Assembly: GCF_006065315.1 (NCBI RefSeq)
Contig: NZ_CP040749.1
Span: forward strand, 2,990,501-3,054,500
Source of the DNA: Aureibaculum algae
Lineage (GTDB): Bacteria; Bacteroidota; Bacteroidia; Flavobacteriales; Flavobacteriaceae
DNA: 64,000 nt
Direction: 5' to 3'
A program made the position numbers and the translations under genes. Numbering within the stretch: the first letter of the stretch is position 1; the number at the start of each line of letters is the position of its first letter. Under the pieces are notes generated by a model that was not told the origin of the DNA, ran no database searches, and saw only the letters and a program-made list of their open reading frames with translations. Positions 14,940 through 25,418 of this stretch are shown one piece after another.

Positions 14940-16274
14940 TTAAATAAGTCCTTTAGCCTTAAATTCTAGATACTTATTAATTACATTAACGCTTAAGTTT
15001 TGAGGTTTTGTAAGAATAGCATGTATTCCTCTATTTTCTAATTCTTTTACGATTAAACGTTTTTCGTAAGCAAATTTTTCTGCTATTGTTTTATGATAAA
15101 TACTTTGTAAATCTTCTACATTTTCAGATATTAGATCATCCAATTCTGTATTTTCAAAAAATACTGTCACCAATAAGTGTTGTCTCGAAATTGCTTTTAA
15201 AAATGGTAATTGTCTATGCAAGGAAGAAATGTGTTCAAAATTAGTATAGAGAATTAAGAGACTACGTTGATTTATTTTCCTTTTAATAGTTGCATATAAA
15301 TAACCAAAGTCAGAATCTGTAAATTTAGTATCTACATTATAAAGAGCTTCATTTATAACATTAATATGAGTCCGTTTATTACTAGCGGGAATCAGTTTCT
15401 CCAACTTTTTTGAAAAGGTAAGCAGGCCTGCTTTGTCATTTTTTAACAAGGCAATATTTGATAACGCCAACGTTGAATTTATGGCGTAATCTAATAATTT
15501 CAATTCCTCAAAAGGCATTTTCATAACCCGCCCTGTATCCACAATCGAATAAATAGGTTGTGACTTTTCATCTTGATATTGATTCACCATCAATTGAGCT
15601 CGCTTCGCCGTTGCTTTCCAGTTTATAGTTCTTACATCATCACCAGCAACATAATTTTTAATCTGTTCAAACTCCATCGTATGCCCTATTCGACGTATTT
15701 TTTTAAGTCCAAATTCTGTTAATTTATTACTCAATGCTAAAAATTCATATTTACGCATTTGAATATACGACGGATATACAGCCACCATTTGTTCAGCATC
15801 AAATCGGTAACGCCTAGCTACCATTTGCAAAGAAGAGGAAACAAATAAATTTAAGTTCCCAAAATTATATTCACCTCGTTCTACAGGTCGCACTTGATAT
15901 TCAAAATTATGAGATTGCTTTGTAGCAATCTCGGTATTAAGTTCAAAATCTCTTTTTTGAAATTGCTTGGGCAACTCATCTATAACTTTTAAAAATATTT
16001 TTATAGGATATTTATTTTCAATAGTAACTGGGACTGGGTTTTCATCAGAATTAGAAAATTTATCTGGTAAAATACGTCTGGCTTTAATTCCGTTTTTAAA
16101 ACGAAATAAAACAAAAGCATCAAATAAGAATAACACTGCTAAGCCCAATACAAATAACCAAGCTACTTGATATAATAAGTCCACCCAAAAAGAAACCAAA
16201 AAAAGGGCTGCTATAATGCTTATATACACAAAAAAGCGTTGATGAATGTACAAGTTTTTGAAAAGATTGATCAT
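14940..16274 (-). CDS. DUF58-domain membrane protein
   Basis: 444 residues. Two membrane helices near the N-terminus (about 14-32 and 34-55), a beta-rich periplasm-side domain, and the DUF58 signature YVAGDDVRTINWKATAKR followed by a von Willebrand A-like region. DUF58 proteins usually travel with a MoxR ATPase and other vWA proteins; here neither is adjacent, which is unusual. It ends convergent to the glycosyltransferase, and the upstream gene is a secreted protein of unknown function 28 bases away. Its role is probably envelope maturation or stress, as inferred for the family. Confidence 0.9.
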   Translation of the reverse strand: MINLFKNLYIHQRFFVYISIIAALFLVSFWVDLLYQVAWLFVLGLAVLFLFDAFVLFRFKNGIKARRILPDKFSNSDENPVPVTIENKYPIKIFLKVIDELPKQFQKRDFELNTEIATKQSHNFEYQVRPVERGEYNFGNLNLFVSSSLQMVARRYRFDAEQMVAVYPSYIQMRKYEFLALSNKLTEFGLKKIRRIGHTMEFEQIKNYVAGDDVRTINWKATAKRAQLMVNQYQDEKSQPIYSIVDTGRVMKMPFEELKLLDYAINSTLALSNIALLKNDKAGLLTFSKKLEKLIPASNKRTHINVINEALYNVDTKFTDSDFGYLYATIKRKINQRSLLILYTNFEHISSLHRQLPFLKAISRQHLLVTVFFENTELDDLISENVEDLQSIYHKTIAEKFAYEKRLIVKELENRGIHAILTKPQNLSVNVINKYLEFKAKGLI

Positions 16275-16302
16275 AGAAAGCGTTTGGTAGGCTAATTTAA
16301 AT

Positions 16303-17166
16303 TTAAAGATTGTTATCTAACAAAAATAAATATTTTGTTGGCTCTTTTACTTTTTTAAATTGTCTAATTTTAGAAATATCAACATTTAAATATTTCTTAG
16401 ATTCATTGTTCATGATATATACTTTTTCCACTTCCCCTTCGGAAACATAAACTATAACTGGAATTGGATACTTAATTTCGATACCTTCATTTTTCAAAGT
16501 TTTTTTCACCTGCAACATGATTTTATTCGAAACGTTTGAATTATTTTCAAGTATAAATTTTTTAAAATTATATCCATTCCCAATTGTTATATCATCACTG
16601 AATTTCACATTTCTTTGAGTTACATTATTAGCTACAAACTTAAATGTTCCAGACTTATTTTTCGTTTTAATTTGAATCTTATCAACATAAGGTAATTCAG
16701 TAGCTATTTTATTCACCTTTCTTTCTAAATCCTTAAAGAGAGCATCAGAGTAAATCCAATTTCCTAGTATTAGTGCAGAATTTGTCATAATTGAGCTAAC
16801 TTTACTATCCTGAAACATATAAATATTAATTGAATTTACTTGGCTAACGGTAGTTATACTAATTTTAATCTCATTATCAATTTTTGAAACCTTAAAACTG
16901 CTTGAATTTAAATGGTTAAGTGGAATTTCATACAACCATTGATAGAAATGACTCTTCCCTTCAGCGGATAATCTTATATCCTCAATGTATAATTTATTTT
17001 TTATAGTGTCCACTCTAAATGAATACTTTTTCTCTGTATTGAATTCTGGTGCATTTACTTCTATTGTGTTTGGCATGTCATCTAAAGAATAAAATGCAGA
17101 CTGAGCACATCCATACTCTAAATTAAAGAGTAACAGTACATTCAAAAGTGTCGAAAAAAATTTCAT
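16303..17166 (-). CDS. Secreted protein of unknown function
   Basis: 287 residues with a signal peptide ending near GCAQS (about residue 22; a Cys precedes AQ, so a lipoprotein is possible). I do not recognise a family. The C-terminal third has a segment KNEGIEIKYPIPVIVYVSEGEVEKVYIMN that resembles a small TonB-C-like or bacterial beta-alpha domain in its rhythm, with positively charged runs before it. It lies 28 bases upstream of the DUF58 gene on the same strand and may share its transcript. Base composition is like its neighbours. Confidence 0.75.
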   Translation of the reverse strand: MKFFSTLLNVLLLFNLEYGCAQSAFYSLDDMPNTIEVNAPEFNTEKKYSFRVDTIKNKLYIEDIRLSAEGKSHFYQWLYEIPLNHLNSSSFKVSKIDNEIKISITTVSQVNSINIYMFQDSKVSSIMTNSALILGNWIYSDALFKDLERKVNKIATELPYVDKIQIKTKNKSGTFKFVANNVTQRNVKFSDDITIGNGYNFKKFILENNSNVSNKIMLQVKKTLKNEGIEIKYPIPVIVYVSEGEVEKVYIMNNESKKYLNVDISKIRQFKKVKEPTKYLFLLDNNL

Positions 17167-17304
17167 GATAATTATTTTATATAACTAGTTATAATCATAA
17201 TACAAAAAATATTCTATCAAATATAAGTTCAATGTAAATTTTTAAATTACATTATCCAATAGTTATATTCAAATACTTTCTGTTTTTAATATCCTTAACA
17301 TTAT

Positions 17305-18738
17305 CTATGGATATTTAAAACCTAAATCATTATGCCTTACTTTTTTTAATTTCTTCTTTAATTTCTTTTGAAAAGAGGATACTATCTTTTTGTAGTTAAG
17401 GTCATTGGCCAAGTTTGTAAATTGCTGAGGGTCTTTGACCATATCAAATAATTCAATACCTGCAGAAGCATCTTCGTTGTATTGAATATAAGCCCATTTT
17501 TCTGTTCTTAACAAAAAAGACTTCCCTCCTTGTGATACACTAAAGGCTTCTTGTCTAACTTGAAATTCAGCATTATCTATAGTTTTAACCAAACTCTTAC
17601 CCTGTAAATGCTTTGAGGTTTTTAGACCTGCCAATTCAGAAATTGTAGGATATAAATCCAACAACTCTACAAATGAATTACAAACTTTCGGATCTTTACC
17701 TGGAACTTTTACAATCAAAGGAACCCGAACAGATTCTTCATGCAAACTCACTTTCATCCAAAAATTATGCTCTCCTAAATGAAATCCATGATCTGAAGTA
17801 AAAATAACTATGGTATTATCCTCTAATCCCTCATTTTTTAAAGTTTCAAGCACTTTACCCACTTGAGTATCCATATATGATACCGAGGCATAATATGCAG
17901 CCACTGCTTTTTTCTCTTGCTCTAAAGACATTTGTCCATTAACGCTTGTAACATAATTGATACCTCTTTTAGGAATATCATCCCAATCACCTTTTACTTT
18001 TTCAGGCATTATGATTTCTTCATGTGGATAGGGTTCAAAATATGCTTTTGGAGCTACAAAAGGCACATGAGGTCTCACAAAACCTAGAGCCAAAAAGAAA
18101 GGTTCGTTTTTATGTTTCTTGATTAATTCTATGGCTTTTTGAGCTGTTTTTCCATCAGAATGGACTAAGTCATCACCTTCAGCCTTAACAATGGTCATCA
18201 CATTACCTCCTTTTCTTTCTATTTTACCATCAGGATTTCCTTGGACTAATTCCGCTTCGCCGATGGCTTTCCATTCAGGCCCTTGACTATTAAAACGCTC
18301 CGTCCAAGATGCTTCATCATCTTGACCATTAGATCCTGTTTCAATATCAATAGGAACTCCCATATGGAAAATCTTACTTACTCTTGCCGTGTAGTATCCG
18401 TTATCTTTGAACAATTGTGTCATTGTTTTTCTATCGGAACCAATATTTTCTCGCCCACTAACATAACCGAAAGTCTTGGTAGCATTAGGATAATACCCAG
18501 ACATAAACGAAGCTCTTGAGGGGCCACATACAGGGTATTGAGAATATGCTTTTGTATACCGAACTCCTTCTGAAGCTAATTTATCAATATTTGGCGTTTT
18601 ACTAGCCTTATTTTCATAAGATGAAACTGCGGTTGCCGTTAAATCATCAGCTATAATGAATAAGATATTTGGCTTTTTCTGTTGAGAAATGGAACTTAAA
18701 CTCCAACATAAAATGGAGATAAAAATAAATTGCTTCAT
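17305..18738 (-). CDS. Sulfatase, iduronate-2-sulfatase-like
   Basis: 477 residues with a cleavable signal (to about residue 19). Sulfatase family S1: metal-binding Asp in IIADDLTATAV (D31, D32) and the signature CGPSRASFMSG with C71 in the C-x-P-S-R context, which needs oxidation to formylglycine by a sulfatase-modifying enzyme not found here. RPHVPFVAP and DHGFHLGEHNFWMK are typical of iduronate-2-sulfatase relatives (S1_7-like). It acts on sulfated glycans in the periplasm, consistent with algal polysaccharide use in marine Flavobacteriia. It sits 65 bases after hisH but has no metabolic link to it. No SusCD pair is near. Confidence 0.92.
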   Translation of the reverse strand: MKQFIFISILCWSLSSISQQKKPNILFIIADDLTATAVSSYENKASKTPNIDKLASEGVRYTKAYSQYPVCGPSRASFMSGYYPNATKTFGYVSGRENIGSDRKTMTQLFKDNGYYTARVSKIFHMGVPIDIETGSNGQDDEASWTERFNSQGPEWKAIGEAELVQGNPDGKIERKGGNVMTIVKAEGDDLVHSDGKTAQKAIELIKKHKNEPFFLALGFVRPHVPFVAPKAYFEPYPHEEIIMPEKVKGDWDDIPKRGINYVTSVNGQMSLEQEKKAVAAYYASVSYMDTQVGKVLETLKNEGLEDNTIVIFTSDHGFHLGEHNFWMKVSLHEESVRVPLIVKVPGKDPKVCNSFVELLDLYPTISELAGLKTSKHLQGKSLVKTIDNAEFQVRQEAFSVSQGGKSFLLRTEKWAYIQYNEDASAGIELFDMVKDPQQFTNLANDLNYKKIVSSFQKKLKKKLKKVRHNDLGFKYP

Positions 18739-18803
18739 AGTTAGTTAATTATAATTGCAAGTTAAAACTATATAATTAAAGTCCTATTCTACTAATTTAT
18801 GAC

Positions 18804-19388
18804 CTATTTTAACTCCAAAAAATTCTTCAATAACAACTCCCCAGCACTGCTACTCTTTTCTGGATGAAATTGTACCCCATAAAAATTATCCTTTTTTAAA
18901 GCCGAAGAATAGTCCATTTCATAATTAGTGACGGCAATGGTTTCAGCACAAATTGGTGCATAAAAACTATGTACCAAGTACATATATTCTTGCTCTCTTA
19001 TCCCTTTAAACAAAGTAGATTTTAAATCTGTAAGTGTATTCCAACCAATTTGGGGTACTTTTACGTTGTTACTAAATTTGACAACATTTACATCAAAAAT
19101 ACCCAATCCTTTTGTATTGCCTTCTTCACTGTAGTTGCACATCAATTGCATTCCTAAACAAATACCTAAAACGGGTTGTTTTAATTGTGGAATAAGGGTA
19201 TCCAACCCAGTGGATCTTAACTTTTCCATGGCACTACTCGCCTCTCCTACACCAGGAAAAATAACTTTATCGGCGGATTGAATGGTCTCCACATCATGAC
19301 TTAGAATGGCTTCGTATCCCAATCTTTGAATAGCAAATTTGATGCTTTGAATGTTTCCGGCTCCGTAGTCGATGATGACTATCTTCAT
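18804..19388 (-). CDS. hisH: Imidazole glycerol phosphate synthase, glutaminase subunit
   Basis: 194 residues, class I glutamine amidotransferase that supplies ammonia to HisF in making imidazole glycerol phosphate and AICAR. The nucleophile is C77 in PVLGICLGMQLM, and the His-Glu pair is H175, E177 in GVQFHPEKS. MKIVIIDYGAGNIQS is the standard start. It follows hisB after 113 bases, a longer gap than elsewhere in this operon. HisF, its obligate partner, is not encoded next to it as expected; a sulfatase is there instead. Confidence 0.95.
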   Translation of the reverse strand: MKIVIIDYGAGNIQSIKFAIQRLGYEAILSHDVETIQSADKVIFPGVGEASSAMEKLRSTGLDTLIPQLKQPVLGICLGMQLMCNYSEEGNTKGLGIFDVNVVKFSNNVKVPQIGWNTLTDLKSTLFKGIREQEYMYLVHSFYAPICAETIAVTNYEMDYSSALKKDNFYGVQFHPEKSSSAGELLLKNFLELK

Positions 19389-19501: not shown

Positions 19502-20635
19502 TTACAACATTCCTTTTGTGCTTGGTAGTATCATTTTATCAGCATCACGTTTTACAGAAGCTTTAATAGCTTTAGCAAAAGCTTTAAAAATTGCCTCAAT
19601 TTTATGATGTTCATTTTCACCTTCAACTTTTACATTTAAGTTCGCTTTAGCACCATCTGTAAAAGATTTAAAGAAATGATAAAACATCTCTGTAGGCATT
19701 TTTCCAATCATTTCGCGTTTAAAATCAGCATCCCAAACCAACCAATTTCTGCCTCCAAAATCAATACTAACTTGAGCTAAACAATCGTCCATAGGTAAAG
19801 AAAAACCATAACGTTCTATACCTAGTTTATTACCTAATGCCTCACTAAAAACTTCTCCTAGAGCAATGGCCGTATCTTCAATAGTATGATGTTCATCAAC
19901 TTCTAAATCGCCTTTAACACTAATTTCTAAGTCCATTTGTCCGTGACGTGAAATTTGGTCTAACATATGGTCAAAAAAAGCAATTCCAGTATCAATTTTA
20001 CTTTTTCCGGTACCATCAAGGTTCAATTTGATGCTAATATCCGTTTCATTCGTTTTTCTTTGAATCTCTGCCGTCCTATTATCTAATTTCAAAAACTCAT
20101 AAATGCGTTGCCAATCATTCGTTTCTAACGCAATGAACTCATCTAATTCATCACGCTTAACCGTAATCTCATCTGTTCCTAAATGTGTATTATCATTTAT
20201 AAAAAAACCTTTTGACCCTAAATTTTTAGCCAACTCGATATCTGTTAAACGATCTCCAATAACAAATGAATTTTTTAAATCATATTCCTCTGAAAAATAC
20301 TTTGTCAATAAGCCTGTATTTGGCTTTCTTGTCGGTGCATTATCTTTAGCATACGTTTTATCAATTACTATTTCGTTAAATACAACACCTTCATTTTTAA
20401 AAACATCGACAATAAAATTATGAACGGGCCAAAATGTATCTTCTGGAAAACTCTCCGTTCCCAATCCATCTTGGTTGGTTATCATAACCAATTCGTAATC
20501 TAATTCATTGGCTATTTTTGGTAAATAGGCTAATGCCTTTGGATAAAATGTTAATTTTTCAAAACTATCAATTTGCTCATCAGTAGTCTCTCTAATAATT
20601 GTTCCGTCTCTATCAATGAAAAGAACTTTCTTCAT
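19502..20635 (-). CDS. hisB: Bifunctional histidinol-phosphatase / imidazoleglycerol-phosphate dehydratase
   Basis: 377 residues. The N-terminal half is a HAD phosphatase with D8 and D10 in LFIDRDGTI and a [14 protein letters not shown] motif III-IV region; the C-terminal half (from about 185) is IGP dehydratase with [16 protein letters not shown] and [15 protein letters not shown] metal-binding histidines. The fusion is known in Enterobacteria and Bacteroidota. It abuts hisC (two bases between stop and start), consistent with translational coupling. Confidence 0.95.
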
Positions 20636-20637
20636 AA

Positions 20638-21681
20638 TTATATTTCTTTTAATGCTTTTATCAATTTTTCATTTTCTTGTTCTGTACCAATTGTAAATCG
20701 TAAACAATTTTCACATAATGGTTGACTTGATCTATTTCTAACTACAATTCCCTTTTCTAATAATTGTGCATACCTTTTATCCGCATTATCTACTTTCACT
20801 AACACAAAATTACTATCTGTGGGATAAATAGTATCAACATATTTCACTTCAAGTAACTCTTCAAGTAACTTATTCTTTCCGGCTGTAATTATGTTAATTT
20901 CATTTTCAATAACAATAACATCTTCCAACCTTTCAATTGCTCGCTGCTGCGTTAATTCATTAACATTATATGGTGGTTTAATTTTGTTTACTACTGCGAT
21001 AATTTCTGAAGAAGCATAACAAATTCCCAGTCGTATTCCTGCCATACCATACGCCTTAGATAGTGTTTGTGTAACTATTAAATTTGGATAATTCTGAAGT
21101 TTATTCAACCAACTATCTCCTGATGAAAAATCGACATATGCTTCATCGATGACTACCAAACCATTAAATGATTTTAGTAAATTTTCAATAATTGCGGCAT
21201 CAAAAGTATTACCCGAAGGGTTATTTGGTGAACATATAAACAACAACTTTGTGTGCTTGTCAACTGCCTTCAAAATTGCATCAACATCCGGCTGAAAGTC
21301 ATTTACTAGTAACACTTCCTTATTCTCAACATTATTAATGTTAGCTAAAACTCCGTACATGCCATATGTTGGTGGTAATGTAATTACATTATCTTCTTTG
21401 GGCTCACAGAAAGCTCGATAAATGAGATCTAAAACTTCATCACTCCCATTACCTAACAAAATATTCTCTAGTTGAACACCTTTTTGTTCTGCTAATATTT
21501 TTTTTACAGTCCTTTGTTGCGGATCTGGATAACGATTTACACCATTTTCAAAAGGATTTTCATTCGCATCTAAAAAGACCATATCCTGATCAAAATCTTT
21601 AAATTCATCACGTGCTGATGAATACGGTTTTAACGCCTTAACATTTGGACGAATTAAACTATTTAGATTAAAATTATTCAT
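20638..21681 (-). CDS. hisC: Histidinol-phosphate aminotransferase
   Basis: 347 residues, class I/II PLP aminotransferase making histidinol phosphate from imidazole acetol phosphate and glutamate. The PLP lysine is in [27 protein letters not shown] and [10 protein letters not shown] are the ring-binding and cofactor motifs, and RFTIG is the substrate-carboxylate Arg region. Its start overlaps the end of hisD by 8 bases, so translation is coupled. Confidence 0.95.
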
Positions 21682-22963
21682 CTTTTAAACTATTTAACCG
21701 CAATGTAACTGCATTTTTATGAGCTTGTAAACCTTCGGCACTAGCCATTATTTCTATGGCATTGCCAATATTCTTAATTCCTGTTTTCGTCACTTTTTGA
21801 AAAGTCATACTCTTTAAAAAGCTATCTAAATTTACACCACTATATTGCTTAGCATAACCATTAGTAGGTAAGGTATGATTAGTACCCGAAGCATAATCTC
21901 CAGCACTCTCAGGTGTATAGTTCCCTATAAAAATAGAACCTGCATTTTGTATACCATCTATATAAAAATCTTCATTTTCAGTGCAAATAATAAAATGTTC
22001 TGGTCCATATTGATTGATTAAATTTAAGGCAATAGCATCATTATCAACATAAATTAATTTGGAATTATCTATTGCTTTTTGAGCCATAGCTTTTCTCGGA
22101 AGATCTTCTATTTGTATTTCTATTTCTGATTCCACTTTATCTATTAAAGATTTAGAGGTAGAAACTAGAATAACTTGACTATCGGAACCATGTTCAGCCT
22201 GACTCAATAAATCAGAAGCCACAAAACTGGCATTTGACGTATCGTCGGCTACTACTAACAATTCAGAAGGCCCTGCTGGCATATCAATTGCTACACCATA
22301 TTTTGTTGCTAATTGCTTAGCTACGGTTACGAATTGATTACCAGGCCCAAAAATTTTAAATACTTGTGGTATCGTTTCGGTACCAAAAGTCATTCCGGCA
22401 ATAGCCTGAATTCCACCAACTTTATAAACCTTAGTAACCCCACAAAGTTCAGCTGCATATAAAATTGCTGGATTAATATTCCCTTCCTTATCAGGAGGAG
22501 AACACAATACAATTTCTGAACACCCAGCCAATTTAGCTGGAATAGCTAACATTAATACCGTTGAAAACAACGGAGCGGTACCGCCTGGAATGTAAATTCC
22601 AACTTTTTGGATAGGGCGTTTTTCTTGCCAACAATTGACACCAACAGCAGTCTCAACTTCAATTTTTGAGGTTTTTTGAGCTTTATGGAATTTTTCAATG
22701 TTGTTCTTAGCCAAAAGAATGGCTTGTTTTAAACTCTCGTCAATGGTTTTCCCTTTTTCAGAAATTTCAGTTGCAGAAACTTGTATATTCTTTAACTCTA
22801 TACCATCAAAAAGATTGGTGTATTTTTCAATGGCAACATCACCTTTCTGTTTTACCTCATTGAAAATTTCTAACACCGTTGCTTCAATATCTTCCACAGT
22901 CTGTGTAGGTCTCGATAATAGCGTTGACCAACTGTCTTTTTCTGGGTTGTATATTTTATTCAT
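21674..22963 (-). CDS. hisD: Histidinol dehydrogenase
   Basis: 429 residues, the Zn- and NAD-dependent enzyme of the last two steps of histidine synthesis. Diagnostic segments: MPAGPSELLVVAD, SQAEHGSDSQVILV (zinc/substrate), GPEHFIICTE and TNHTLPTNGYAKQYSGV. Length is normal. It overlaps the GNAT gene by 8 bases at its start and hisC by 8 bases at its end. Confidence 0.96.
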   Translation of the reverse strand: MNKIYNPEKDSWSTLLSRPTQTVEDIEATVLEIFNEVKQKGDVAIEKYTNLFDGIELKNIQVSATEISEKGKTIDESLKQAILLAKNNIEKFHKAQKTSKIEVETAVGVNCWQEKRPIQKVGIYIPGGTAPLFSTVLMLAIPAKLAGCSEIVLCSPPDKEGNINPAILYAAELCGVTKVYKVGGIQAIAGMTFGTETIPQVFKIFGPGNQFVTVAKQLATKYGVAIDMPAGPSELLVVADDTSNASFVASDLLSQAEHGSDSQVILVSTSKSLIDKVESEIEIQIEDLPRKAMAQKAIDNSKLIYVDNDAIALNLINQYGPEHFIICTENEDFYIDGIQNAGSIFIGNYTPESAGDYASGTNHTLPTNGYAKQYSGVNLDSFLKSMTFQKVTKTGIKNIGNAIEIMASAEGLQAHKNAVTLRLNSLKDE

Positions 22964-23393
22964 TTGTATATGTCTTTCTAAAATGGAAACCTAACTTTTG
23001 ACAACCATAGTTTTCCCAAAATTTATTTCCTCTATTGTTACCAATATAACTATTTAATTCTGTTGCAACACAACCAATTGATTTGCCATAATCATTAACC
23101 CAATCTAAAAGCAATGGGCCAATTTCTTTCCCCCTATAATCTGGATGAATCATCACATTATCAGCTTCTAAATGTTTACCAATATAATACTTGAACAACA
23201 CCCAAACACCACAAATTCCAATCAATTTATCTTCTTCATAAACTCCAGCACATTTATAATGATGCTTTAGCATTTCTGGGAGCCTTTCTTTTAAAACCTC
23301 AACACTTATTCTATCATCAAGTCGCCTTAAATAAGGAATAAGTGTAAAAATATCCTCATCAGCTATAAATTTGATTTGATAAGGTGAATCCAT
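22956..23393 (-). CDS. GNAT-family acetyltransferase inside the his operon
   Basis: 145 residues. GNAT fold: DKLIGICGVWVL is strand 4 and VMIHPDYRGKEIGPLLLDWV contains the acetyl-CoA pyrophosphate-binding R/Q-x-x-G-x-G/A-like motif A; ATELNSYIGNNRGNKFWENYGCQKLGF covers motif B. The substrate cannot be read from sequence. It starts one base after the hisG stop and overlaps hisD by 8 bases, so it is fully embedded in the operon and must be co-translated with it. This placement is not standard for histidine operons I know; it could modify a pathway intermediate or a pathway protein, or be a passenger. Confidence 0.88.
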   Translation of the reverse strand: MDSPYQIKFIADEDIFTLIPYLRRLDDRISVEVLKERLPEMLKHHYKCAGVYEEDKLIGICGVWVLFKYYIGKHLEADNVMIHPDYRGKEIGPLLLDWVNDYGKSIGCVATELNSYIGNNRGNKFWENYGCQKLGFHFRKTYTNE

Positions 23394-24251
23394 TTATAAA
23401 ACCATTTTTTCAATTGGGCAAACTAAAATCCCTTCTGCTCCATTCAACTTTAATTCATCAATTACATCCCAAAACCTATCTTTATTAATTACAGTATGTA
23501 TTGAACTCCAACCTGCTTCTGCCAAGGGTAAAACTGTTGGGCTTTTCATTCCTGGCAGGATTTTTATAATATCAGCTACCTTATCGTTTGGAGCATTTAA
23601 CAACACATATTTACTATTTCTTGCTTTAAGAACCGATTGAATTCTAAATTGAAGTTTATCTAATATACGCTGCTTTTCATCAGATAATGAAGGTGAAACC
23701 GTTAAAACAGCCTCACTTTTTAATAAGACTTCAACTTCTTTTAAGTTATTTTTAAATAAAGTACTACCACTTGAAACAATATCGACAATAGCATCAGCCA
23801 ATCCAATATTTGGAGCAATCTCTACAGAACCATTAATAACATGTAGCTCTGATTTTACGCCTTTTTTATCTAAAAACTGATTGACCGTATTTGGATAGGA
23901 GGTTGCAATTCTCTTACCTTCTAAATCCTTAATTGATCCGTATTCAACTGATTTAGGCACAGCAATAGAAACTTTACATTTCGAAAAGCCTAATTTTTCA
24001 ACTATGGGTAAGTCGTTTCCTTTTTCAATTAATGTATTTTCACCTAATATAGCAGCATCTACTACACCATCTCTAAGATACTGAGGTATATCTCCATTTC
24101 TTAGATACAAAACTTCAATAGGGAAATTTCTTGCAAAAGCTTTTAATTGATCTTTTCCATTATCAATGGAAATACCACAATTTTTAAGCAATTCTAATGA
24201 TTCTTCGTTTAATTTGCCTGATTTTTGAATGGCAATTTTTAATTTATTCAT
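23394..24251 (-). CDS. hisG: ATP phosphoribosyltransferase (long form)
   Basis: 285 residues, the first and committed step of histidine synthesis. Long form HisG_L: catalytic part to about residue 210, including GDIPQYLRDGVVDAAILGEN and DIVSSGSTLFKNNL (PRPP-binding loop), and a C-terminal regulatory ACT-like domain (about 215-285) with MKSPTVLPLAEAGWSSIHTVI, which allows histidine feedback without HisZ. It is the first gene of the operon and lies 30 bases after the attenuator terminator. Confidence 0.96.
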   Translation of the reverse strand: MNKLKIAIQKSGKLNEESLELLKNCGISIDNGKDQLKAFARNFPIEVLYLRNGDIPQYLRDGVVDAAILGENTLIEKGNDLPIVEKLGFSKCKVSIAVPKSVEYGSIKDLEGKRIATSYPNTVNQFLDKKGVKSELHVINGSVEIAPNIGLADAIVDIVSSGSTLFKNNLKEVEVLLKSEAVLTVSPSLSDEKQRILDKLQFRIQSVLKARNSKYVLLNAPNDKVADIIKILPGMKSPTVLPLAEAGWSSIHTVINKDRFWDVIDELKLNGAEGILVCPIEKMVL

Positions 24252-24288
24252 TTATTTAAAATTAGGTTCGATAGTGCAAACAAATAAA

Positions 24289-24317
24289 AAACCCGCTTGA
24301 ACTATTCAAACGGGTTT
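24289..24317 (-). terminator. his operon attenuator terminator
   Basis: On the minus strand, AAACCCGTTTGAA (24317-24305), loop TAG, then TTCAAGCGGGTTT (24301-24289), with one G-U wobble and a tail of T residues (TTTATTTG). It stands between the leader peptide and hisG. The segment UUCAGGCGAG of the leader (24360-24351) can pair with the left arm: eight successive pairs, two of them G-U, then one mismatch. That is an antiterminator. Confidence 0.85.
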
Positions 24318-24346
24318 ATATGATTTTAGATTTAAAACACAACAAC

Positions 24347-24400
24347 TCACCTCGCCTGAAAGCCAGTATGGAAATGATGATGTATGTGATTTAAAGACAT
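24347..24400 (-). CDS. hisL: Histidine operon leader peptide
   Basis: 17-codon reading frame MSLNHIHHHFHTGFQAR with five histidines in seven positions (5, 7-9, 11). It starts 20 bases after the -7 element and ends 30 bases before the terminator hairpin. A ribosome stalled at the His codons would leave the downstream FQAR-coding bases free to pair with the left terminator arm and so allow hisG transcription; with ample His-tRNA the ribosome covers those bases and the terminator forms. The C-terminal FQAR codons are thus part of the RNA switch. It is too short for gene callers. The peptide itself probably has no other role. Confidence 0.88.
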   Translation of the reverse strand: MSLNHIHHHFHTGFQAR

Positions 24401-24419
24401 TTTTTCTATTATTGAAGCA

Positions 24420-24452
24420 CAAATTTAATGGATAAATTTTTTATAATGCAAA
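24420..24452 (-). promoter_or_regulatory. his operon promoter
   Basis: TTTG (24452-24449), 21-base spacer, TAAATTTG (24427-24420) on the minus strand: a full match to the Bacteroidota -33/-7 consensus. Transcription would start around 24414, about 14 bases before the leader ATG. Confidence 0.75.
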
Positions 24453-24509: not shown

Positions 24510-25418
24510 TTATCCTTCCTTTAACTTATTCATTTCTACTTGATGCTGCTTTTTAGCATAAGTATATCCGTAATGCCACCATTTGGCCATTAGCTTTTTA
24601 TTGAACACTAAAGAATTTGTAGTTAAAACGGTTGGTGTATAATATAAATTAAGTTTCACATTATCGTGTGCTGCCTGTAATTTACCAATGGTTACATTAT
24701 GCCTTTCCACTTGGTCCATCATAAATTGAACCACATGAGTAATTAATGAAAAGGGGTTTTTTGAAGGAATTCTATTGAGTTGGCTTACTTCAGTTTCTAA
24801 AATAATTACATCAATTTCAGTTGCTCCTCTCAATATGGCTTCTCTTATAGGCACTAAAGAACCAAAACCTCCATCGGCATATTCACATCCATTTTTACGC
24901 AATAAACTCATAAATGGCACATAGTTACAAGATGCCCAAATCCAATCACAAAAATCGAGATAGGTACAATCTTGTATCGCTTTATACTCTACTACATTTT
25001 TGGTTAAGTTTGATACAGTAACTACCACGTCTTTTTCTGATGCTTTTATACGGTCAAAATACGATTCAGTAACATACTTTTTTATCAATTTTCTTAAATT
25101 TTTACTTTCACCAAAAGTCCGCCGTCCATTAATAAAATTCCACACTGTATTTAAATGATTAATGGAAACCACTTTTTCTCCATCAACGGTTTTTACAACA
25201 AAAGGATTATTGCTGAAAATTTTTCGTTGATTTATAGTCGTATAAATAGCTTTTAACTCATAAAGCTTTCCTAACGCCAAATGCGACACCATTAAGCTAC
25301 CTGTTGATGTGCCTAAAAATAAATCGTATGTATTATTTTTTTCATCTATAAGATATTCAGCAACACCACCTGCAAATGCCCCTTTACTTCCTCCCCCTGA
25401 AATTACTAATGCTCTCAT
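24510..25418 (-). CDS. Patatin-like phospholipase
   Basis: 302 residues. Patatin fold with the oxyanion loop GGGSKGAF (8-15), nucleophile S38 in GTSTG, and catalytic D182 in YADGGFG. No signal peptide or membrane helix, so a cytoplasmic or membrane-associated lipid acyl hydrolase. It is a free-standing patatin domain without the BamA-like barrel (surface antigen domain) that some Bacteroidota patatins carry. It is divergent from a Ycf48-like lipoprotein gene; no functional link to the his operon downstream is evident. Substrate unknown. Confidence 0.92.
   Translation of the reverse strand: MRALVISGGGSKGAFAGGVAEYLIDEKNNTYDLFLGTSTGSLMVSHLALGKLYELKAIYTTINQRKIFSNNPFVVKTVDGEKVVSINHLNTVWNFINGRRTFGESKNLRKLIKKYVTESYFDRIKASEKDVVVTVSNLTKNVVEYKAIQDCTYLDFCDWIWASCNYVPFMSLLRKNGCEYADGGFGSLVPIREAILRGATEIDVIILETEVSQLNRIPSKNPFSLITHVVQFMMDQVERHNVTIGKLQAAHDNVKLNLYYTPTVLTTNSLVFNKKLMAKWWHYGYTYAKKQHQVEMNKLKEG

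Follow-up and report, generated by a model that had tools for sequence, protein, structure and literature searches.

A very probable histidine attenuator precedes hisG in Aureibaculum algae and is conserved in Flavobacteriaceae

In Aureibaculum algae a short His-rich open reading frame and a hairpin stand between a patatin-like gene and hisG, which raises the question whether both belong to one device controlling the histidine operon or are neighbours by chance. We analysed the locus within a window of 64,000 nt (64 kb; contig NZ_CP040749.1, positions 2,990,501 to 3,054,500), the whole stretch of DNA to which the coordinates below refer. The parts of the element and the genes from hisG to hisH lie on its minus strand. 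The genome consists of one contig of 5.17 Mb, and its HisG core is 99% identical to that of Aureibaculum flavum over 155 residues. Based on the analysis below, the element is very probably a ribosome-mediated transcription attenuator of the hisG operon. A preliminary description of the same DNA had proposed a complete histidine attenuator with classic logic, and this overall reading is supported by the conservation of the leader and of the antiterminator pairing in relatives.

From the patatin-like gene towards hisG, the order on the minus strand is promoter boxes, leader ORF, 29 nt, a hairpin with six T, 34 nt and hisG. The predicted leader peptide ORF, MSLNHIHHHFHTGFQAR plus TGA, has 17 codons (24347..24400). 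His occupies codons 5, 7, 8, 9 and 11 (24368..24388), the presumed stall sites of the ribosome according to our stall model, and the previously described 17-residue leader with five His in seven positions is confirmed for codons 5-11. The hairpin (24317-24289) consists of a left arm, AAACCCGTTTGAA (24305..24317, segment 3), and a right arm, TTCAAGCGGGTTT (24289..24301, segment 4). The arms form 13 pairs around a 3-nt loop, TAG, and the T run of the intrinsic terminator comprises six T (24286..24291). One of the 13 pairs is G-U; the earlier term "perfect" for this hairpin was thus slightly too strong, although the hairpin itself is present before hisG. When the 64 kb were scanned on both strands for a short ORF with an excess of one amino acid and a strong terminator behind it, the hisG leader was the single place returned, and no other amino-acid leader was found in the window at the thresholds used. 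The patatin-like gene upstream of the leader (24510-25418) shows a weak match to a CBASS cGAMP-activated phospholipase (E 2.4e-8, below the cut-off).

Upstream of the leader two boxes are found 21 nt apart, TTTG (24449..24452, -33 type) and TAAATTTG (24420..24427, -7 type). The latter is located 19 nt before the leader ATG, a spacing common to many relatives. TTTG and TAnnTTTG boxes are what we take to be the Bacteroidetes promoter motif (-33 and -7). Of the consensus promoter claimed before, the boxes stand, but the pattern is not above chance, with four occurrences in the 64-kb window versus 5.2 expected. Since it arises about five times per window by chance, the pattern alone is no evidence. 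In 94 of the 182 distinct family leaders, the end of a TTTG-type box is 16-19 nt upstream of the start codon. The distance is 7-8 nt in 22 (L028, L036, L043, L064 and 18 others), another 53 have the box elsewhere, and 13 have none within 60 nt. With the start codon only 7-8 nt behind the box, the mRNA of those 22 leaders may be nearly leaderless. In leader L047 the start codon follows such a box after 4 nt.

To judge conservation we used a set of 199 Flavobacteriaceae genomes (198 genera), 166 of which have hisG. The DNA upstream of hisG was read in 111 genomes (110 genera), namely A. algae, 30 loci and 80 that were fetched. Under a strict rule, with three or more His required within 7 residues, 107 of the 111 have a His-cluster leader upstream of hisG. 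For the reverse strand this rule gave 1 of 111, and for first-order Markov shuffles 2.7 of 111 on average. The misses (L008, L011, L051 and L082) are leaders with two clustered His. A simpler rule (ATG, three or more His) gave 97 of 104 parsable loci. A relaxed rule was applied to 191 loci, i.e. the 111 genomes and 80 named loci, the best 80 of at least 584. It succeeded for 190, the sole miss having 61 nt of upstream DNA; as this rule also scores TCARGCG when picking among ORFs, 190 of 191 is not an independent count. Dropping 8 duplicates from the 190 left 182 distinct leaders, from which L018 was dropped for some analyses owing to a terminator missed by the scan (181); five of the 182 lack a parsable arm, which leaves 177. 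Missing leader conservation in relatives had been named beforehand as an observation that would speak against attenuation. When this was checked, a short leader ORF with tandem codons for the amino acid of the pathway was found to be conserved under the strict and the relaxed rule alike. A terminator lies between leader and hisG in 181 of the 182 distinct family leaders.

The occurrence of the element was followed genome-wide with a covariance model, R1, built from 34 family leaders and run over the 199 genomes; its E-values are rough. R1 matches 182 of the 199 family genomes at E ≤ 0.001. All 166 hisG genomes match at E ≤ 4e-8, whereby 34 of them supplied the model and 55 were searched with R1 only, the leader itself being read in the other 111. 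Of the 33 genomes without hisG, 17 have no match, 15 have none better than 7e-7 and one falls below 1e-7. Three weak matches in hisG-less genomes were inspected (L315, L316 and L317) and are plain terminators. Among loci available with flanking DNA and not used to build the model, the strong match lies just upstream of hisG on the same strand in 18 of 18. In A. algae the hisG leader is the single strong place, and R1 finds no second one near the hisA/hisF/hisI cluster or anywhere else in the genome. Genome G027, 99% complete and with no hisG found, nevertheless keeps an attenuator element (L308; G027:C11:14402-14521, minus strand; R1 E 1.5e-16). Inspected by eye, it is a well-preserved His leader with terminator and no his gene behind it, possibly an orphan or fossil attenuator.

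The end of the leader deserves particular attention. The antiterminator strand (segment 2), TTCAGGCG (24353..24360), is located within codons F-Q-A and pairs with CGTTTGAA of the terminator left arm (24360-24353 with 24312-24305) by eight consecutive pairs, two of them G-U, exactly as proposed in the preliminary description. The proposed double role of the last codons, as coding sequence and as antiterminator, is likewise borne out. In fixed register, seven of seven antiterminator pairs are present in 150 of 177 leaders, and in an alignment of 34 sequences 99.2% of the antiterminator cells are paired, versus 19-54% in slid registers. CARGCG is found inside the ORF in 156 of 182 distinct leaders when any frame is allowed, and 154 of these 156 carry it in frame. 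Spacing is rigid: in 148 of 156 leaders the word starts 12 nt upstream of the point where the stop codon ends. The distance from the His run to CARGCG is exactly five codons in 145 of the 153 leaders with an HH run before the word; in the A. algae leader HHH also stands five codons ahead of CAG.

Codon choice points in the same direction. For Ala, the rare codon GCG is used in 85 of the 88 leaders with a QA ending, whereas in 11 CDSs of the window 14 of 210 Ala codons are GCG. The duplex of leader end and left arm has an energy of -12.9 kcal/mol compared to -7.5 kcal/mol for synonymous recodings. Ranked against 100 such recodings, drawn with the codon usage of the A. algae genome for every species, the natural duplex is at rank ≤ 5 in 143 of 181 leaders and beyond rank 50 in two. 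The 26 of 182 leaders without CARGCG in the ORF were inspected singly. The stop codon falls inside the antiterminator word in L282, L298 and L304, and the word lies behind the stop codon in L092. It is read in another frame in L267 (as CAGGTG) and in L002 and L300 (as CARGCG). L095 has GTG and CAT in place of GCG and CGT, a matching change on both strands. The preliminary description had expected conserved FQAR codons. As a peptide FQAR is not conserved; it is the RNA word TCARGCG that is kept, in some leaders even where the frame or the stop codon has shifted. Conservation of the leader end thus concerns its RNA, not its peptide.

A co-varying antiterminator had been predicted for relatives as well. 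Here the pairing is conserved and the covariation consistent with it, but there is little of it: one pair is changed on both sides, which 28 of 500 shuffles also reach. Within the word, CAA occurs together with CGTTTGA in 104 cases and with CGTCTGA in none; for CAG the counts are 42 with CGTTTGA and six with CGTCTGA. The terminator helix shows changes on both sides in 5 of 12 pairs. RNAalifold was applied to 95 leaders chosen for CARGCG. With the right arm unmade it returned the antiterminator only, and for the full RNA the terminator only. The antiterminator overlaps the 3' end of the leader, and antiterminator and terminator are mutually exclusive.

These elements suggest the following course. 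RNA polymerase would start just upstream of the leader and a ribosome would begin the 17-codon ORF. If charged His-tRNA is scarce, the ribosome is expected to stall on codons 5-9, so that TTCAGGCG(A)GG, downstream of the His codons, is left free and may pair with the terminator left arm once this arm is made. The terminator could then not form in time and hisG would be transcribed. If His-tRNA is plentiful, the ribosome would reach TGA and cover TTCAGGCG, left and right arm would pair and transcription would stop before hisG. In a leader that is not translated, TTCAGGCG might be hidden by base pairing of the His codons with the sequence that follows the stop codon. The terminator would form by default due to this 1:2 pairing, which is the least certain step. 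The predicted 1:2 hairpin, obtained as the minimum free energy structure, spans 24331..24395 with the antiterminator strand inside.

We modelled the effect of ribosome position on the A. algae RNA made up to half of the right arm. With the ribosome on His 5-9 the probability of the antiterminator reaches 0.92-0.98 (12 or 15 nt footprint). On His 11 it still reaches 0.74-0.75 with the 12-nt footprint and 0.25-0.32 with the 15-nt footprint. Without a ribosome it is ≤ 0.17 and with the ribosome at the stop codon 0. In the full RNA at equilibrium the terminator prevails in every ribosome state (0.92-0.94). The switch would therefore have to be kinetic, i.e. decided during RNA synthesis. Other attenuators likewise decide while the RNA is being synthesised. 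Across 181 relatives the stalled antiterminator exceeds 0.5 in all 181, but so it does in 381 of 455 synonymous controls (five for every second leader), with medians of 0.87 and 0.66, respectively; with the ribosome at the stop codon it is below 0.2 in only 132 of 181. As the synonymous controls are nearly as good, the ribosome-position model carries little weight over the relatives.

Could the attenuator work without the 1:2 step, with antiterminator and terminator only, as drawn in the preliminary description? RNAalifold would agree with this, as it gives no consensus for a 1:2 helix, neither on the 95 CARGCG leaders nor on a hand-anchored block of 143. Either the 1:2 pairing drifts in register or it is weaker than thought. 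Moreover, the antiterminator without ribosome has a median of 0.40 in the relatives and stays below 0.5 in only 107 of 181. On the other hand, pairing of the His codons with the post-stop stretch beats shuffles, being at rank ≤ 5 of 50 in 99 of 182 leaders versus 18 expected. Among the first 90 of the 182 leaders, 75 give a fold of leader plus post-stop stretch with z < -2, and the A. algae RNA has a fold of -16.9 kcal/mol before the terminator is made. An attenuator lacking the 1:2 step is in our view unlikely, though it keeps some weight.

Three further readings compete with the ribosome-mediated attenuator. The hairpin might be the terminator of the upstream patatin-like gene and the His-rich ORF a product of chance. 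Intrinsic terminators behind a gene on the same strand are indeed common, and shuffles of the surrounding kilobase contain 0.5 terminator-like hairpins on average. Yet leader, antiterminator word and spacing recur before hisG genus after genus, and the element follows the presence of hisG according to R1. A mere terminator with a chance ORF is refuted by this conservation, leaving it an extremely small probability. The leader might also act as a peptide instead of via its RNA end, by nascent-chain sensing or by translational coupling and re-initiation at hisG. Its C-terminus looks conserved (QAR, QAS, QAK or QAN), and for bacteria, Bacteroidetes among them, a mechanism of re-initiation at leader genes has been put forward (PMC4833913). 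Such a role is very improbable nonetheless: the leader stop lies 95 nt before hisG with the terminator in between, frame-shifted or early-stop leaders keep the RNA word and lose the peptide, and the rare GCG codon is nearly fixed. Finally, a T-box or a histidine-binding riboswitch could control hisG, T-boxes being an alternative for his genes in other phyla (PMC9413887). However, nowhere in the window does an Rfam family score at or above its gathering threshold. No T-box covariance match does so either, nor is there one among the 18 matches up to E 10 on the stretch, where the best sub-threshold family is His_leader. We attribute next to no probability to this reading and retain the ribosome-mediated attenuator.

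His_leader (RF00514), the enterobacterial hisL element, is the best of the Rfam families listed for the stretch with 30.5 bits (E 0.0021). Its gathering score of 49 is thus not reached here, and neither is it in any of 41 family genomes; the E. coli control scores 131.6. Hence the attenuator in its present form is not covered by Rfam. Both elements share a tandem-His leader directly before hisG, an intrinsic terminator and an antiterminator that uses the left arm of the terminator. The flavobacterial one differs by its fixed word TCARGCG and its Bacteroidetes-type promoter box, and the likeness implies no common descent. The preliminary description took the leader to be shorter than the enterobacterial one, which is wrong: E. 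coli hisL comprises 51 nt including the stop codon and encodes 16 residues, compared to 17 in Aureibaculum. The enterobacterial his leader RNA follows an A-F segment scheme with more segments than the flavobacterial one. The RNA had been called simpler, which holds for the number of segments but misses the pairing between His codons and post-stop stretch predicted above. A 2004 abstract by Vitreschak et al. is said to name Bacteroidetes/Chlorobi among the groups with candidate amino-acid attenuators. This kind of attenuator may well have been predicted for the phylum already.

Similar arrangements are described for other bacteria. His-leader attenuators in Firmicutes (hisZ/hisS and his operons) also combine a short leader, three to five His codons, a terminator and an antiterminator, as described in parts of PMC9413887 and PMC2965389. 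They belong to another phylum and are given for six, five and six species in three lineages in the corresponding part of PMC9413887, compared to a whole family here; the likeness is one of description. Within the same phylum, leader-like sORFs in long 5' UTRs of B. thetaiotaomicron are described by their authors as reminiscent of attenuation leader peptides. The example, however, precedes the hypothetical protein BT_4401, and the word histidine is absent from the text (PMC7366714). A survey from 2010 states in one of its passages that no leader-peptide system had been shown outside Proteobacteria and Actinobacteria (PMC2965389). We found no description of a his attenuator from Bacteroidetes in the literature covered, most subscription journals being outside this coverage. 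The respective passages of PMC9413887, PMC2965389, PMC4833913, PMC7366714 and PMC8632094 describe none. The mechanism itself is textbook, and the find is solid but expected in kind, with unusually clean family-wide evidence. It provides a concrete, testable attenuator in a phylum for which those literature passages describe no his attenuation, and lends itself well to finding out if flavobacteria couple the ribosome to the polymerase. Moreover, with matches in 166 of 166 hisG genomes, it provides a very sharp marker for annotating a leader gene of 17-18 residues and for a missing Rfam family.

Beyond the family, we considered a further 115 loci drawn from the order, class and phylum; five of them again belong to Flavobacteriaceae (f1). 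A His-cluster leader precedes hisG in 78 of the 115. By the strict rule 77 are found; the reverse strand yields 4 and shuffles 4.35. For 24 of the 115 loci orientation is doubtful due to low HisG similarity, and re-orienting them by hit strand gained no leaders. The 37 loci without leader comprise 24 with a different HisG type, four from 0.6-Mb genomes of family f16 and nine others. The scan detected a terminator in 47 of the 78 leader loci, and the duplex of leader end and arm ranks ≤ 10 of 100 shuffles in 27 of these 47. Leader ends and terminator arms vary between clades outside the family. Tentatively, control of hisG by His attenuation could be old and extend over much of the phylum, with leader-end codes that are specific to clades, such as the five-codon ruler in Flavobacteriaceae and a differently built switch in family f35. 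If true, this would imply close coupling of transcription and translation across Bacteroidota. Bacteroidota mostly start translation without Shine-Dalgarno sites.

Two of these families show peculiarities of their own. The f16 loci L118 and L121, from 0.6-Mb genomes, have no leader ORF, and a hairpin with T run is located between a TTTG-type box and hisG. This looks like decay of an attenuator in reduced genomes. Family f35 (18 loci; L145, L147, L148, L173 and 14 others) has His-rich leaders that begin a few bases behind a TATnTTTG-like box and start with GTG in 14 of 18. The scan found a strong terminator before hisG in none of the 18 loci. In four of five folded leaders a helix GRTGTCC...GGACATC is found inside the leader. 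Family f35 possibly has a differently built His switch.

Downstream of the attenuator, the genes belong to the pathway of the same amino acid. The presumably regulated gene hisG (ATP phosphoribosyltransferase, 23394..24251, TIGR00070) is followed by hisD (21674..22963, TIGR00069), hisC (20638..21681, TIGR01141), a bifunctional hisB (19502..20635, NF003937) and hisH (18804..19388, TIGR01855), the last his gene of the cluster. Between hisG and hisD lies a GNAT-like acetyltransferase gene with no family over the cut-off (22956..23393). L335 has a relative of it (43% identity) in the corresponding position; none was found in L334 and L336. The operon is split. After hisH follow a sulfatase-like gene, an unknown gene and a DUF58-like gene (window 14940-19388), and hisA, hisF and hisI are located about 0.9 Mb away at genome positions 2120994-2123900 (L332, L331), behind a MoxR-type ATPase gene; the names MoxR and DUF58 were assigned by eye. 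In G119, of the same genus, a DUF58-like gene directly follows hisH, and in L335 and L336, from other genera, the order is hisH-hisA-hisF-hisI. From these gene orders, it looks as if two operons were fused by a rearrangement that also separated hisAFI from the attenuator.
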